Assembly (NCBI RefSeq): GCF_003627755.1
Contig: NZ_CP032695.1
Location: forward strand, 2,232,001 to 2,296,000
Length of the DNA: 64,000 nt
DNA from: Rhizobium jaguaris
GTDB lineage: Bacteria; Pseudomonadota; Alphaproteobacteria; Rhizobiales; Rhizobiaceae
Direction of reading: 5' to 3'
The notes under the pieces are model-generated. The model saw only the letters and a list, made by a program, of their open reading frames with translations. It did not search any database and was not told the origin of the DNA. Positions 25,639 through 31,115 of this stretch are shown piece after piece (position 1 is the stretch's first letter; every line of letters begins with the position of its first letter). The position numbers and the translations under genes are program-made.

Positions 25639-27816
25639 ATGGTGACACGCGCGCAGCAGATTGGCGTCGTTATCGGCTTGGCGATTGTCGCGGCGTTGAC
25701 AATCCTGCGGGCAAGCGATCCCCAGTTTCTAAGGCTCGCCCGTAATTTGACATTCGACCAGTATCAGCGCCTGGTGCCCCGGACCTTCGAGAACCTGCCT
25801 GTGCGGGTCGTCGACATTGACGAAGCATCGCTGCGCGAGTTCGGTCAATGGCCGTGGCCAAGAAATCGGATTGCCGCCCTTGTCGACAGGCTCTCCGGCA
25901 TGGGTGCATCCGCTATCGCTTTCGATGTGCTCTTCGCAGAGCCCGATCGCCTGTCGCCTCGCAATGTCGTTCGCGACGTCCCTGGCGTTGATCCGGCGCT
26001 GCTTGGCCAATTGCCTGACAATGATGAGATATTTGCCAAATCACTGTCCGGACGGCCTGTGGTGCTGGGTTTCGGCCTCTCCAACGAAGGAAACTATCTG
26101 CCGCCTGTCAAAGCCGGTTTTGCCTACACTGGCGCAAGTCCTTTCGGTGCGCCGCCCGCGATCAAGGCCGCGACACCGCTGCAGCCGCAATTGGAAGCCA
26201 ACGCCGCCGGCATCGGGCATATCAGCCTCAATCCGGGCGCCTCGTCCGCGGTGGTGCGCGCGGTTCCGCTTTTCCTCAGCGACAGCAAGCAGCTTTACCC
26301 CAACCTTGCGATCGAGGCACTCCGGGTTGCGCAGGGAGCCTCCACCTACATACTGGACAGTGCGTCAGACGCGCCGAACACCATAACGCGGGTCAAGATC
26401 GGAGATTTCGTGGTGCCGGTAACCGCGGCGGGCGAGCTCTGGCTCTATGTCAGCCCCGACACCAAAGAAAGATATATTTCCGCAAGCAAAGTGCTCGCGA
26501 CAGGAGACGTCTCCGCCGATATCAAAAACGCCATCGAAGGCAGCATCGTGTTCGTCGGGACATCTGCCGCTGGCCTGCAGGATATCCGCACGACCGCTCT
26601 GGACGAAAACGTACCGGGTGTCTCCGTGCACGCGCAGATCGTCGAGCAGATCCTTTCAGGCCGCTTCCTTTCCCGACCGGACTGGGCAGACGGTCTGGAA
26701 ATCCTGTCCATCGCCGTGCTGGGCAGCCTTTTGGTAATCCTGACCACCTTCGTCACTCCGGCAGTCGCGCTCGCCTGCGGTCTGCTGATTACCTTTCTCG
26801 CCCTCGTCGCCTCCTGGACCGCCTTTCTCTACGCAGGCCTTCTCTTCGACCCGCTGGCACCGATCGTCGCCGGATCGATCACGCATTTCGCTGCGACGGC
26901 ATTCCGCTTTCTCGTGACAGACCGGGAACGGCGCGACGTGCGGCGGGCCTTCGGCCATTATCTTTCACCTTCCCTGCTCTATCGCATCGAGCATACGCGC
27001 AATGCCCTGCGTCTCGGGGGAGACGAGCGCGAATTGACCGTCATGTTCGTCGATGTGCGAAACTTCACGCAGATCAGCGAGCAGATGACGCCGAGCGCCT
27101 TGGTCGCATTTCTCAACACGCTGCTAGATGCGCTGAGCCACCATGTCATCGCGAATGACGGCACGCTCGATAAGTTCATCGGGGATTCGATCATGGCCTT
27201 CTGGAACGCTCCCATTGATGTGCCAGACCATGCCGGCAAGGCCGTGCGCGCGGCGCTGGGCATGCGTGAGACGCTTGCTCGCCTCAACAGCAGCGATGCG
27301 TTCGGCTTCGGAGATGAGCGACAAGTCGCGATAGGGATCGGCATACATACCGGGCTTGCCTGCGTCGGCAATATGGGTGCGGAGACCCGCTTCAATTACT
27401 CTGCAGTCGGCGATGCCGTGAACATTGCCGCGCGAATCGAATCCGCCTGCAAGGACATCAGTTTCGACGTTCTGGTGTCCGAACCCACGGCAAAGCTGCT
27501 GTCCGATTGCGCACTGCTCGAAGCGGGAGCGCTAATGCTGAAGGGGAAGAGCATGCGAACCAAGCTCTTTGCGGTGATCGGTGATGCACGTCTGGCAAGA
27601 TCCGGCGAATTTGTTGAACTTCACGCAGAGCACAAGCGGCTTGTCGAGGCCTTGCGAACACACTCGACGGGCACCCGCAAACTGATCGGCGCCGCAAAAC
27701 TCAAGGCGCAGGCCGCGGCAGCAGGGTTGCTGCAGGAATTCTATGGCCATATCTCGCACAGAGCCGCGCACTTCGCCGATGAGCATGCAGATAGAGCCGA
27801 TCATGCCGATACCTAG
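25639..27816 (+). CDS. CHASE2-domain class III adenylate cyclase
   Basis: A 725-residue membrane sensor enzyme. After an N-terminal membrane anchor (about 6-22) comes a periplasmic CHASE2 domain (about 30-340; VVDIDEASLREFGQWPWPR and IAFDVLFAEPD are typical). Three hydrophobic segments follow (about 355-430), then the cyclase domain from about 455 to 640. Metal-binding Asp residues are in FVDVRNFT (near 470) and FIGDSIMAFWN (near 515); the purine-specifying Lys (LDKFIGDS) and Asp (SAVGDAVN) are those of ATP-using enzymes, and NIAARIE supplies the transition-state Asn/Arg. It should make cAMP in response to a periplasmic signal. The stop codon TAG lies at the first bases of a palindromic repeat split by an IS element. 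Confidence 0.9.
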   Translation: MVTRAQQIGVVIGLAIVAALTILRASDPQFLRLARNLTFDQYQRLVPRTFENLPVRVVDIDEASLREFGQWPWPRNRIAALVDRLSGMGASAIAFDVLFAEPDRLSPRNVVRDVPGVDPALLGQLPDNDEIFAKSLSGRPVVLGFGLSNEGNYLPPVKAGFAYTGASPFGAPPAIKAATPLQPQLEANAAGIGHISLNPGASSAVVRAVPLFLSDSKQLYPNLAIEALRVAQGASTYILDSASDAPNTITRVKIGDFVVPVTAAGELWLYVSPDTKERYISASKVLATGDVSADIKNAIEGSIVFVGTSAAGLQDIRTTALDENVPGVSVHAQIVEQILSGRFLSRPDWADGLEILSIAVLGSLLVILTTFVTPAVALACGLLITFLALVASWTAFLYAGLLFDPLAPIVAGSITHFAATAFRFLVTDRERRDVRRAFGHYLSPSLLYRIEHTRNALRLGGDERELTVMFVDVRNFTQISEQMTPSALVAFLNTLLDALSHHVIANDGTLDKFIGDSIMAFWNAPIDVPDHAGKAVRAALGMRETLARLNSSDAFGFGDERQVAIGIGIHTGLACVGNMGAETRFNYSAVGDAVNIAARIESACKDISFDVLVSEPTAKLLSDCALLEAGALMLKGKSMRTKLFAVIGDARLARSGEFVELHAEHKRLVEALRTHSTGTRKLIGAAKLKAQAAAAGLLQEFYGHISHRAAHFADEHADRADHADT

Positions 27817-27840
27817 AGCAATTCCAGGAAAAGTGCGCAG
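27813..27840. repeat. Left half of a rhizobial palindromic repeat, cut by the IS110 element
   Basis: The bases after the cyclase stop, TAGAGCAATTCCAGGAAAAG followed by TGCGCAG, are the first arm and part of the loop of an intergenic repeat that I recognise as common in Rhizobium. The second half resumes at 29007. In the joined form, ATTCC-A-GGAAAA pairs with TTTTCC-GTCC-GGAAT and the loop is GTGCGCAGCGG. Confidence 0.75.
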
Positions 27841-27852
27841 TATCCGTCTTAG

Positions 27853-28800
27853 TCAAGCGTGTTCAGGTGTCCAAAATCGATCCTCTCGGATGAGTGCGTT
27901 TGCGAGAATGACGAGCTTTCGCATGATGGCGGTAATGGCGGCCTTGGCGGCTTTTCCGCCGGCGGTGAGTTGCTGGTATTTGCTCTTGAGGGGTGGATTG
28001 AAGCGAATGGCGACGAGGGCCGGCATATAGAGGGCGCGGCGAAGCTGGGTCCTGCCGCCTTGAATGAAGCTTTTGCCTTTCCATTGGCCGGACTGTCGCA
28101 CGACCGGCGCGAGACCGGCCAGGCTGGCGGCCTGTTTGTTGGCCAGTGTTCCAAGTTCCGGCATGTCGGCAATCAGCGCCAGGGCGCAGGTTGCCCCGAT
28201 ACCGGGAATGCTGGTGAGGATGTCGAGACGGCGCTGCAATTGCGGCTCGGCGGCAATCAATCGACGGCTTTCGGCATCGACAGCCTCGATTTGGGCGTCG
28301 ACCTGCCGCAGCCGTTGCTCGGCCTGGCGCTGCAGCAGGGGGATGGTCACATTCTTCTGCCGATGCAGGAGAGCGTTCCGGTCCTTAACGAGCGCGCGGC
28401 GAGCGGCGAGCAGTTCGGCGAGAAGATCAAGCACTTGGCTGCGCATTGGCCGGATGTCCGGGGCCATCAATGTGCCGAACCGGGCCATGACGCGCGCGTC
28501 GATGCGGTCCGTCTTGGCCAGCCGGCCACAGGCTTTGGCGAAGGCGCGTAGGCGCTGCGGGTTCACCTTGACGCCGGGCAGGTCCGCCGTTGCCAGCATG
28601 CGTTCGAGGCGCCGATGGTAGGCGCCGGTCGCCTCGAAGACAATGCGCTCGGGCGCGTAAGGCAACAGCCAGCGGATCAATGCCCGCAGCCCTTTGGCGT
28701 CGTTGGGGAACTGCTTGTCGATGCCGTCCGGCAGGAGATGGACATCGAGGCGATCTTTCGAGATGTCGATACCGAGGGTTCGTGCTATCGTATGAGCCAT
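27853..28800 (-). CDS. IS110-family transposase (DEDD recombinase)
   Basis: A 315-residue transposase. The N-terminal RuvC-like DEDD domain shows GIDISKDRLDVHL (first Asp, residues 11-23), IVFEATGAYHRRLE (Glu near 56) and KTDRIDARVMARF (two Asp near 97-100). The C-terminal Tnp domain has LTSIPGIGATCALALIADMPELG and the serine-containing LAGLAPVVRQSGQWKGKSFIQGG. Length matches the family (about 310-340) and no frameshift is seen, so it is probably intact. The start ATG at 28800 follows directly after the RNA-encoding 5' end. Confidence 0.93.
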   Translation of the reverse strand: MAHTIARTLGIDISKDRLDVHLLPDGIDKQFPNDAKGLRALIRWLLPYAPERIVFEATGAYHRRLERMLATADLPGVKVNPQRLRAFAKACGRLAKTDRIDARVMARFGTLMAPDIRPMRSQVLDLLAELLAARRALVKDRNALLHRQKNVTIPLLQRQAEQRLRQVDAQIEAVDAESRRLIAAEPQLQRRLDILTSIPGIGATCALALIADMPELGTLANKQAASLAGLAPVVRQSGQWKGKSFIQGGRTQLRRALYMPALVAIRFNPPLKSKYQQLTAGGKAAKAAITAIMRKLVILANALIREDRFWTPEHA

Positions 28801-28804
28801 CTTT

Positions 28805-28990
28805 TCCGTGTCCCATGCTTGTCATGCGGGCCGTCAAAGCCCGGCTATCCGTTCAGGCCTCATGGAAAAGAAAGGGGCGATCCTACTGCGCAACGGTTCT
28901 GTCAAACCAGCGGTTTCTCGATCCCACCCCTCCCGCCGTCTGTGGGTGTTCAGGCCCACAGGCGGCAATCCATTGTCGCCTCAAAACAAG
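28805..28990 (-). ncRNA. Predicted bridge RNA of the IS110 element
   Basis: Read on the minus strand, the 5' non-coding part folds into three parts. First, a 5' stem-loop: GCCG-N-CTGTGGG (28935-28946) pairs with CCCACAG-N-CGGC (28955-28966). Second, a target loop with guides AAACCGCT (28916-28909) and TGCGCAG (28892-28886), separated by a GGTT/AACC hairpin and closed by AGGGG/CCCCT (28873-28877 with 28927-28931). Third, a donor loop with guides ACGGATA (28852-28846) and GACAAG (28823-28818), separated by a CGGGC/GCCCG hairpin. The first pair of guides matches the genomic halves flanking the insertion and the second matches the IS ends, as in the bridge-RNA model known from IS621. Exact RNA ends are not visible. 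Confidence 0.85.
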
Positions 28991-29006
28991 ACAAAGTCAT
29001 AAGACA

Positions 29007-29086
29007 AGCGGTTTTCCGTCCGGAATGCGTAAAAACAAAGGGATAGAGCGGGAAAGCGATTCCGCGAAACGCTGAACCGCTCTAGC
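29007..29086. repeat. Right half of the interrupted palindromic repeat
   Basis: AGCGGTTTTCCGTCCGGAAT completes the hairpin begun at 27813, and is followed by GCGTAAAAACAAAGGGA and a second dyad in which TAGAGCGG (29044-29051) pairs with CCGCTCTA (29077-29084). The order of parts is that of a mosaic rhizobial intergenic element. Confidence 0.75.
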
Positions 29087-29159
29087 TGATTTTGCAACCA
29101 GTGCCCGTAACCGCAATCATTGAAAGCGGACAGGATTTCGGGGCTCAGATAGCTTTGGG

Positions 29160-30152
29160 CTACCTATGGTGATCCCCGCCACCATTGTCGCCATGATCGC
29201 CGTCATGGCCGTCGCTGTCATGATGACCGCGATGATCATGGTGACCGTGATGATCATGATCATCGCCGTCGTCTTTGTCAGGTGTGCTCGGCGGGCTTGG
29301 AACGTCCGGTGTGCTAGGTGTTTGGGGCGTACTGGGCGCGGCCGGCGCCTCGGCACGTGGCGATTCAGGTGCGCTCGGTGTACTGGGGGCACTAGGAGTG
29401 TCGGGCGGTGACGGAGCGGGACTAGTGGCTGGAGCGCTGCGTTGGGGTGTACCGTTTGGCCGGTCTCTCATCGCGGTCGATAGGCCACAATCGCCGCCGC
29501 CGGCAAAAGCCATTCTTCCCGAAAGCCTTTGATCGCCGGACAGGAACGGTAGGGCGCGCTGGTTGCCGAGCGTCTTGAGAATATCGCGATTGACCCGGCG
29601 CGGATCACTTATCTCGCCATTGCGTTTGGCGACCACGCAGTCGCATTGCGCTTTCAATTGCCTGCAGCCGCCCGCGCCGCAAAATTGAGCGGCGCCGTTC
29701 AACAGAACTACCGCCGTCGTGCCGTTGGGGCCGACATAGAAATCAAACGCTGTTCCGCGCACACCGATCGTTCCCGCCGGCGTCACGATTTGATAGGCCG
29801 AGTGGTTTGAGTTTCCGCTCATCCAGCGAAAAGTGCCCTTCGCGGCGTTAATGGTGAGCTTTTTTACTGAACCCGAGTCGTCGAAGACGAATTTGTCGAT
29901 GGTCACCGAGGAGCCGGCTCCGACAGCCAATTTCGTGCCATCTCGAAATGTGAACTGACCAAGACCGGAAATGGACGTGCGAATTCGCTCGTCCCGGTGG
30001 ACCGGATCATCGACCGCCATCGGACCGCTTGCGCCGGAGACTTCAGTTTTGATCAAGACCGCCTCGCCGACCTTCTCGTCGGCTTTCGAAGGTAGCGGAG
30101 CGAACAGCGTGACGCTCAGCACAGCAATTGCGGCGTCACGCAGATATACCAT
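29160..30152 (-). CDS. FecR-domain secreted protein with Pro-rich and His/Asp-rich tail
   Basis: A 330-residue protein. The signal peptide (about 1-24, MVYLRDAAIAVLSVTLFAPLP...KA) starts at ATG 30152, preceded by GGGGGT; GTG 30164 would add four residues. A FecR domain follows (about 35-170; DDPVHRDERIRTSISGLGQFTFRDGTKLAVGAGSSV and TPAGTIGVRGTAFDFYVG). Cys-rich CGAGGCRQLKAQCDCVV is near 180-196. Then comes a Pro/Ser/Ala/Thr repeat region (about 235-290, P-S-T-P and S-A-P units), and about 37 residues that are almost all His, Asp and Gly. FecR proteins of this type are often found beside CHASE2 cyclases, here convergent at 25639. The tail may bind metal ions or Ca2+. Probably periplasmic. Confidence 0.82.
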   Translation of the reverse strand: MVYLRDAAIAVLSVTLFAPLPSKADEKVGEAVLIKTEVSGASGPMAVDDPVHRDERIRTSISGLGQFTFRDGTKLAVGAGSSVTIDKFVFDDSGSVKKLTINAAKGTFRWMSGNSNHSAYQIVTPAGTIGVRGTAFDFYVGPNGTTAVVLLNGAAQFCGAGGCRQLKAQCDCVVAKRNGEISDPRRVNRDILKTLGNQRALPFLSGDQRLSGRMAFAGGGDCGLSTAMRDRPNGTPQRSAPATSPAPSPPDTPSAPSTPSAPESPRAEAPAAPSTPQTPSTPDVPSPPSTPDKDDGDDHDHHGHHDHRGHHDSDGHDGDHGDNGGGDHHR

Positions 30153-30377
30153 CCAGACCCCCACAAAGATTATCTATGTTTTACCATAAGATAGCCGTTG
30201 GCGCCCATCATCCATTCTGAGTATAATGTATGTAGCCGGCGCCACTGGCGGGTAGGTTTTTGGCCGAAACTAAACTCCGATACAGTTTATTTCCGCGATT
30301 ATCTGAAAACTCCACTTCACAACCACTACGTTTGGATCGTCGGGGTCTATGTCGACGTGCGGAAACAAACATCCATG

Positions 30378-31115
30378 CTAAACGCCGCGCTTGTTACCCC
30401 AAAGCAGAACGTGCAATTGCGGTAGAACCCGCGCCTCGAACCATCCGTCAGCCGTCACCCTGTCCACGAGCCAGCGCATCCGATCCAAGATGCCGTCGAT
30501 ATCGATCGCTGCGTCATCTGTTTCGGGCGGAGGCGGCGTGTGGTTGCCGGGCTGCAGATAGACCGGCAAGCGCGGATAGCGGGCGGAGGCATCGCGAGCA
30601 TAGGCATAATCGCGGTCATCGAAAACGACGATCTTCAGCGCGATCTGCGGTCTATCGGCCGCCTGACGAAGACAGTCGTCGAAGGCATCCCAATCCGTTG
30701 CCATGCCGCTCGAAGGCGGCTTTGGGCTGAGCACCAGCACATCGAGATCGGCAAACCACTCTTTGGCGATGCTTGCCTGCGTTTCCAGAGCAAAGCTGTA
30801 GCCGTGATCATGGCCGCGGGCGATCAGCGGCCCGAGCGGCTGGATCGCCGGATTGCCGCCCGAAAGAGAGACCGTCAGCGGTTTGCCGCCAGAGAGTCGG
30901 GTCACCTCTTGCCAGATCTCGTCGACCGACATTGGCTGCCATTGGTCGCGATAGTCGCGGTCGACCGCATGCAGCGTATCGCACCAGAAGCAGCGGTAAT
31001 CGCAGCCTCCGGTCCGGACGAACACGGTAGGAAGGCCGATCAATATTCCCTCGCCCTGGATAGTCGGTCCGAATATTTCGCTGACGCGAATCCGGGTCTC
31101 CCGCGCCTCGCTCAT
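30378..31115 (-). CDS. queE: 7-carboxy-7-deazaguanine synthase QueE
   Basis: A 245-residue radical-SAM enzyme that rearranges 6-carboxytetrahydropterin to 7-carboxy-7-deazaguanine. The cluster motif is C38-x3-C42-x2-C45 ([12 protein letters not shown]), the standard radical-SAM C-x3-C-x2-[25 protein letters not shown] is the family N-terminus, and [10 protein letters not shown] is the SAM-contacting GGE-like motif with Asn in place of Glu. The start overlaps queD's stop by 4 nt. Last gene of queC-queD-queE, which together make preQ0, the precursor of queuosine in tRNA. Confidence 0.95.

Follow-up and report, generated by a model that had tools for sequence, protein, structure and literature searches.

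Bridge RNAs, described for the Escherichia coli insertion sequence (IS) IS621 (PMC11208160, PMC11208158), have been predicted for 85.7% of the IS110-group elements in ISfinder, as stated in the excerpted part of Durrant et al. (PMC11208160). Here we analyzed a window, i.e., the whole stretch of 64,000 nucleotides of Rhizobium jaguaris DNA, which sits in contig C2 of an 8.0-Mb genome and carries an IS110-family element on its minus strand. Because bridge RNAs are predicted for so large a share of the group, the element adds to an already known class; for a rhizobial bridge RNA, no title or abstract start was found among the open-licence PMC papers listed, which is weak evidence of absence. We consider it highly probable, from sequence, that the locus is an insertion sequence of the IS110 group carrying a bridge RNA of its own, whose guides choose repetitive extragenic palindrome (REP)-like sites. 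At the sequence level, the basis for this reading is the element itself, its guides, a covarying two-loop structure, covariation of guides with flanks, the site choice of five copies, and a promoter-like junction. The features that define the element are as follows.

27839 to 29008, minus strand: IS110-family insertion sequence, 1170 bp including both CT cores, delimited by five copies with a common boundary and differing flanks
27853 to 28800, minus strand: DEDD recombinase (transposase), 315 aa, identified by Pfam and phmmer
29007 to 29008, minus strand: left core CT, presumably target-derived by analogy with the IS621 mechanism
27839 to 27840, minus strand: right core CT, presumably donor-derived by the same analogy
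29009 to 29014, minus strand: left target flank AAACCG
27834 to 27838, minus strand: right target flank GCGCA

The recombinase contains both IS110 domains (PF01548, E 6.1e-21; PF02371, E 7.5e-21) and in phmmer searches aligned across residues 8-305 with the recombinases of ISCro4 (9t56, E 1.6e-33) and IS621 (8wt6, E 9.5e-32). By eye, its D, E, D..D and S residues, whose roles are taken from the excerpted text of PMC11208158, line up with those of the two enzymes, and the IS110 hallmark of a DEDD RuvC-like domain plus a C-terminal Tnp domain with a conserved serine is present. The non-coding ends measure 206 nt on the left (29006-28801) and 12 nt on the right (27852-27841), the long-left, short-right pattern of IS110; among the 25 longest of 32 inverted repeats of at least 10 nt, none paired both element ends. 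As the initial annotation had reconstructed them, the rebuilt site of the window copy reads AAAACCG-CT-GCGCAC and the joined ends read ACGGATA-CT-TGTC. Rebuilt sites with one core resemble uninterrupted repeats, indicating that insertion occurs at the core without extra target duplication. By its sequence, the element is assigned to the IS110 family, IS110 group.

Within the left non-coding end, four words can be read as guides.

28909 to 28916, minus strand: left target guide AAACCGCT, supported by word counts and flank tests
28886 to 28892, minus strand: right target guide TGCGCAG, supported by word counts and flank tests
28846 to 28852, minus strand: left donor guide ACGGATA
28818 to 28823, minus strand: right donor guide GACAAG

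All four guides were found where they had been proposed, each exactly once within 28801-28996. When this 196-nt segment was subjected to 20000 dinucleotide shuffles, 17885 contained none of the four words, 2090 contained one, 25 contained two, and 0 contained three or four. At every one of the five occupied sites in this genome, the left target guide agrees with 8 of the 9 bases that end with the core. The right target guide had been described as complementary to the core plus the right target; this holds in full for the window copy, with seven bases matching, whereas six match in the other four copies, in which the base after the core differs. The donor guides match the joined ends and rank with the best-conserved segments in the alignment of relatives.

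We then compared guides with insertion flanks among relatives. A scan of genome contigs supplied 80 homologous loci, and genus and family searches supplied others; 135 loci were entered, 134 had a match, and in 62 the ends were placed by donor-side motifs, which lie outside the target. Two duplicates (L169, L156) were dropped and 60 rows aligned; setting aside L105, which has no left flank, as well as L040 and L152, the shuffle test covered 57 insertions with 39 distinct guides, seven of the insertions belonging to the window element and its Rhizobium tropici relative. Over the 39 distinct guides, the left guide matched its own flank at 6.13 of 8 bases compared to 4.23 with shuffled flanks, and the right guide at 4.44 of 5 compared to 2.13, with 0/2000 shuffles as high in either case; for both real and shuffled pairs, the left guide could slide over a short stretch. 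The shuffles ignore relatedness, and a few relatives, such as L023 and L027 with their identical left flank, may share an inherited site. With L040 and L152 restored (41 guides), the values were 6.07 versus 4.21 and 4.24 versus 2.08, again with 0/2000 as high. Across these 41 distinct guides, the right guide met at least 4 of 5 bases in 90% of cases at its own flank and in 10% when set against the flank of an element that has a different guide. Entire target types change together with the guides: CTGCGCTG goes with CAGCGCAG in L042, and CTCGACCG goes with CGGTCGAG in L048. By position, the right target matched in 52/57 insertions at +1, 55/57 at +2, 57/57 at +3, 54/57 at +4, 37/57 at +5, and 21/55 at +6, and four of the five misses at +1 are the window element's own copies, the fifth being L043. 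At its best register, the left target matched in 54 of the 57 insertions at -1, in 43 to 51 at -2 to -6, and in 21 at -7; the left guide base facing T, the second core base, was T in only 34/57.

Folding of the aligned relatives with RNAalifold gave two loops, in each of which a stem is followed by two guides with a hairpin between them. The set of 35 relatives left out the window element and R. tropici, its members being at most 79% identical to the window element. Mapped onto the window, the predicted RNA has the following parts.

28935 to 28966, minus strand: 5' stem-loop of the bridge RNA, with arms 28935-28946 and 28955-28966
28874 to 28934, minus strand: target-binding loop (outer stem, left guide, hairpin, right guide), from helices 1-3 and the covariance model match
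28895 to 28908, minus strand: hairpin between the target guides (helix 3), both sides changing in 3/4 pairs
28800 to 28871, minus strand: donor-binding loop with outer stem (outer arms 28861-28871 and 28800-28810), from helices 4-5 and the model match
28827 to 28843, minus strand: hairpin between the donor guides (helix 5), both sides changing in 4/4 pairs
28884 to 28885, minus strand: putative handshake guide TA in the target loop, able to pair with TA at the donor end and read by the rule in the excerpted PMC11208158
28816 to 28817, minus strand: putative handshake guide CA of the donor loop, in which C can pair with the last left-target base G and A is unpaired with the preceding C

Compensated changes were found in 12/17 pairs (6.8 in shuffled alignments, 0/500 as high), and 97.6% of cells were paired, compared to 85.4% in shuffled alignments (0/500) and 22.6-64.2% in slid controls. 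Both small hairpins that had been proposed to part the guide pairs covary. The 5' stem-loop, given earlier as 12 bp, does precede the guides with arms of 12 nt each, but these form 11 pairs with one mismatch. A held-out covariance model built from the same 35 relatives matched 28934-28798 with E 8.3e-29, the sole match up to E 1 in the 64 kb; genome-wide, it gave five matches, which are the five copies (150 of 2755 first-look candidates scored). The position after the right donor guide, which PMC11208158 describes for IS621 as a handshake position in the part available, can pair with the last left-target base in 34/39 distinct guides (shuffled mean 24.0, 0/5000 as high) and, counted by insertion, in 49/57 (shuffled 37.8). 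The donor end, the predicted partner of the putative handshake guide TA in the target loop, is nearly invariant (A in 59/60).

The genome holds five copies of the element, four of them identical over 1174 bp; the fifth (L005, C1:440019-441205) is shorter by 2 bp, with a transposase gene that is read as two pieces. All five split a REP-like repeat at one point, AAACCG-CT-NCGCACTTTTCC, and all five occupy guide-matching sites, in line with the earlier expectation that the flanks of other copies would match the guides, as they also do across relatives. Once rebuilt, their sites resemble the uninterrupted repeats found elsewhere in this genome, 14 of which were inspected. An orthologous empty site was not found in a search with the flanking gene among relatives: in the best-matching relative (G012, L137), the stretches aligning with the flanks (window 27815-29158) are 41 bp apart, with neither repeat nor IS. 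Because L137 has neither, uninterrupted repeats within the own genome were taken as the empty-site control. Uninterrupted copies of the 13-mer AAACCGCTNCGCA number 44 in the genome, with T in 27, G in 10, A in 6, and C in 1 at the free position after the core, and a reversed control pattern occurs once; a stricter pattern with the core and its neighbours left free was present at 28 sites, of which 27 have CT as the core and 1 has TT. In the occupied sites, the base after the core is T in 3, G in 1 (the window copy), and A in 1, so a preference for G is not apparent (1/5 occupied versus 10/44 uninterrupted, Fisher p = 1), although five copies give little power.

By eye, at least three REP-like repeat families whose outer stems differ share AAACCGCTNCGCA as their centre (own genome, L187-L205 and L006-L020), and the five copies occupy one of these. 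The 22-bp repeat centre was present at no more than 1 mismatch in 120/148 genomes of the genus, the own genome included, while IS copies at least 92% identical over nearly the full length were present in 2/148 (two candidates scored per genome), the own genome and that of R. tropici (G140). The orientation of the target repeat is one-sided in the own genome (43 versus 8 at no more than 2 mismatches), with no switch half-way along contig C1; it is 24 versus 6 in R. tropici, 15 to 1 in G068, 10 to 1 in G070, and 17 to 3 in G086, and near balance in many other genus genomes.

R. tropici CIAT 899, which NCBI places in Rhizobiaceae, carries two copies of the IS on plasmid pRtrCIAT899c, with recombinases 91.4% identical to that of the window. 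The left guide is identical, and so is the right guide except for the base facing the first core base, which is A (L133) or N (L132) compared to G in the window element. One copy sits at GCAACTG-CT-GCGCAC, a guide-like site whose flanks, by eye, are unlike the repeat. Because of this insertion, guide choice can be separated from repeat choice, and it seems, on one R. tropici insertion, that the guide rather than the repeat picks the site. The other copy (L132) lies in a repeat and has a left core GT and a right core CT, consistent with the target supplying the left core and the donor the right one.

A promoter-like pair of boxes forms, by sequence, across the joined ends.

27851 to 27856, minus strand: -35-like box TTGACT of the right end, placed 17 bp from the -10-like box by joining of the ends
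28996 to 29001, minus strand: -10-like box TATGAC of the left end

Among the 60 aligned elements, the -35 hexamer begins with TTG, at 17 bp, in 60/60, and the third base of the -10 hexamer is T in 59/60. The -10 hexamer begins with TA in 60/60, but TA is demanded by the motif used for placing the left end, so this conservation is not independent. In the integrated copy, target sequence fills the -35 position. Assuming a start ~7 nt past the -10 box, the RNA would span ~28989 to ~28801, which nearly coincides with the segment given by the initial annotation. In the proposed pathway, joining of the ends in the excised circle would create the promoter, from which a ~180-190-nt RNA of the left end, and probably also the recombinase, would be transcribed. 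The target-binding loop would pair with AAACCG-CT-NCGCA in REP-like repeats and the donor-binding loop with ACGGATA-CT-TGTC at the joined ends, and the recombinase would exchange strands at the CT core. From IS621, we infer by analogy the transcription, the recombinase binding, the circle formation, and the strand exchange. The words 'complete' and 'programmable', which the initial annotation used for the description and the recombinase, are likewise inferred.

Several results weigh against the reading of the left end as a bridge RNA with site-choosing guides. Ends could not be placed by motif in 72/134 loci, and the guide-flank tests cover placed loci only. The left guide fits poorly (3 or 4 of 8) in 7/57 insertions, the base just after the core mismatches the right guide in 4/5 local copies (T in 3, A in 1), and the right flanks of L040 and L152 misfit their own right guide. 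Further pair types numbered 24 compared to 21.2 in shuffled alignments (50/500 as high), the one of five structure measures not clearly above the control, and the structure was derived from the same alignment on which pairing was tested. Moreover, an IS621-type covariance model found no match in window 26000-31000 (best E 0.86, elsewhere) and missed the clade members L022, L042, L048, and L092 up to E 1, and the window clade's model missed the left end of the ISCro4-like element. The right flanks of L040 and L152 read TGTCTTG, resembling the donor right side of these two elements themselves rather than the site predicted from the guide; one reading of this is donor-donor recombination. Tandem copies at the two loci were rejected, as by eye the sequence past the right end does not go on as a left end.

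Four named records went into the IS621-type model (IS621, one relative, an ISCro4-like element, and an E. coli plasmid element), since recombinases like that of ISCro4 had been found in just 1/398 genomes when the phylum was searched with E up to 1e-70. Rfam models run over 26500-30000 at E up to 5 gave four weak matches, none above the family cut-off. Thus, the covariance search advised by the initial annotation divided: Rfam and the IS621-type model gave no match, an outcome that it had counted against the bridge RNA, whereas the held-out model of the relatives gave the strong match above. Intermediate elements with 36-43% protein identity are recognized by both models, and in the same place: L082 matched the window clade's model at E 3.6e-6 and the IS621-type model at 7.6e-4, and among 30 further loci the IS621-type model matched 13 at E up to 0.1 (3.5e-5 to 0.082; these E-values are modest and the calibration is rough), all 13 overlapping a match of the window clade's model, which itself matched 27/30 loci in a list with L082 replacing L100. 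By coordinates, the dual matches L069, L082, L091, L099, L159-L164, and L167 lie directly upstream of the gene; L116, L124, and L127 are also listed among the dual-model intermediates. Since the held-out model matches and the intermediates match both models at the same position, we read the IS621-type model's miss of the window as distance.

Could the guide matches be a by-product, with the recombinase or the REP hairpin structure choosing the site? All five local copies lie in one repeat family, and targeting of REPs by IS110 elements had been described before bridge RNAs (PMC1525189, in excerpt). Against this, the R. tropici copy at GCAACTG-CT-GCGCAC lies outside repeat-like flanks (by eye), and guides and flanks change together in relatives, the right guide meeting at least 4 of 5 bases at 90% versus 10% in own and foreign flanks; palindrome targeting is therefore a very improbable account. 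Chance matching is next to impossible: the motifs are short, a reader is free to pick ends and lengths of matches, and GACAAG alone appeared in 1714/20000 shuffles, but no shuffle held three or four words, and neither the held-out model match nor the covariation in relatives is expected from it.

Two further alternatives accept a left-end RNA and differ on what it does. A shorter processed RNA bearing the target matches (seekRNA) may alone act in target choice, with the donor loop serving otherwise; a 58-nt RNA of ISEc21, 16 nt under its 74-nt seekRNA, sufficed for transposition according to the available text of PMC11187229. However, the donor guides are highly conserved and separated by a covarying hairpin, and the donor loop's first handshake position tracks the target base, which leaves this alternative unlikely. 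The RNA might instead mainly regulate transposase expression, like the two small RNAs of ISPpu9, a role that is compatible with guides as well; as the principal function we find it scarcely credible, as it does not predict that guides track insertion flanks. Altogether, a bridge RNA with target and donor guides is our strongly favored reading.

It is possible, though we would put it somewhat below an even chance, that the target rule is looser than that of IS621, with the base after the core ignored and the bases that are read forming the centre common to at least three REP-like families. If true, the bridge RNA would be tuned to a degenerate target spread genome-wide, not to one exact site. 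Of specialist interest are the tolerated variation in the base after the core and the use of a target motif shared by several repeat families. The element offers a compact (315 aa) recombinase with directly readable RNA guides in a native host with many unoccupied sites, and its copies are identical and so apparently recent. It also provides a natural test of which guide positions matter. The dual-matching intermediates provide a path to a wider bridge-RNA family model, Rfam having no family above its cut-off here.

Among the known systems close to the window element, the R. tropici copies share the left guide and differ by a GT left core or a non-repeat site. ISRm19 of Sinorhizobium meliloti, likened here by description only, is also of the IS110 family, with 4/4 copies in rhizobial REPs (excerpt of PMC1525189). 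The ISCro4 recombinase (PDB 9t56) is the best solved-structure match by sequence; the left end of an 88% relative (L182) aligns readily with that of IS621, and it is there that the window clade's model has no match. Relative to IS621 of E. coli, as far as the excerpts of PMC11208160 and PMC11208158 describe it, the window element has another target and donor and no direct covariance-model match either way, its right donor guide has six contiguous bases where pairing in IS621 is discontiguous, and the base after the core is not read strictly. The two elements agree in recombinase homology over almost the full length, in an RNA in the left end with a 5' stem-loop followed by two guide loops, in the order and strand of the guides and the CT core, as the initial annotation had noted, and in a promoter across the joined ends (here by sequence), the handshake position, and REP targets.
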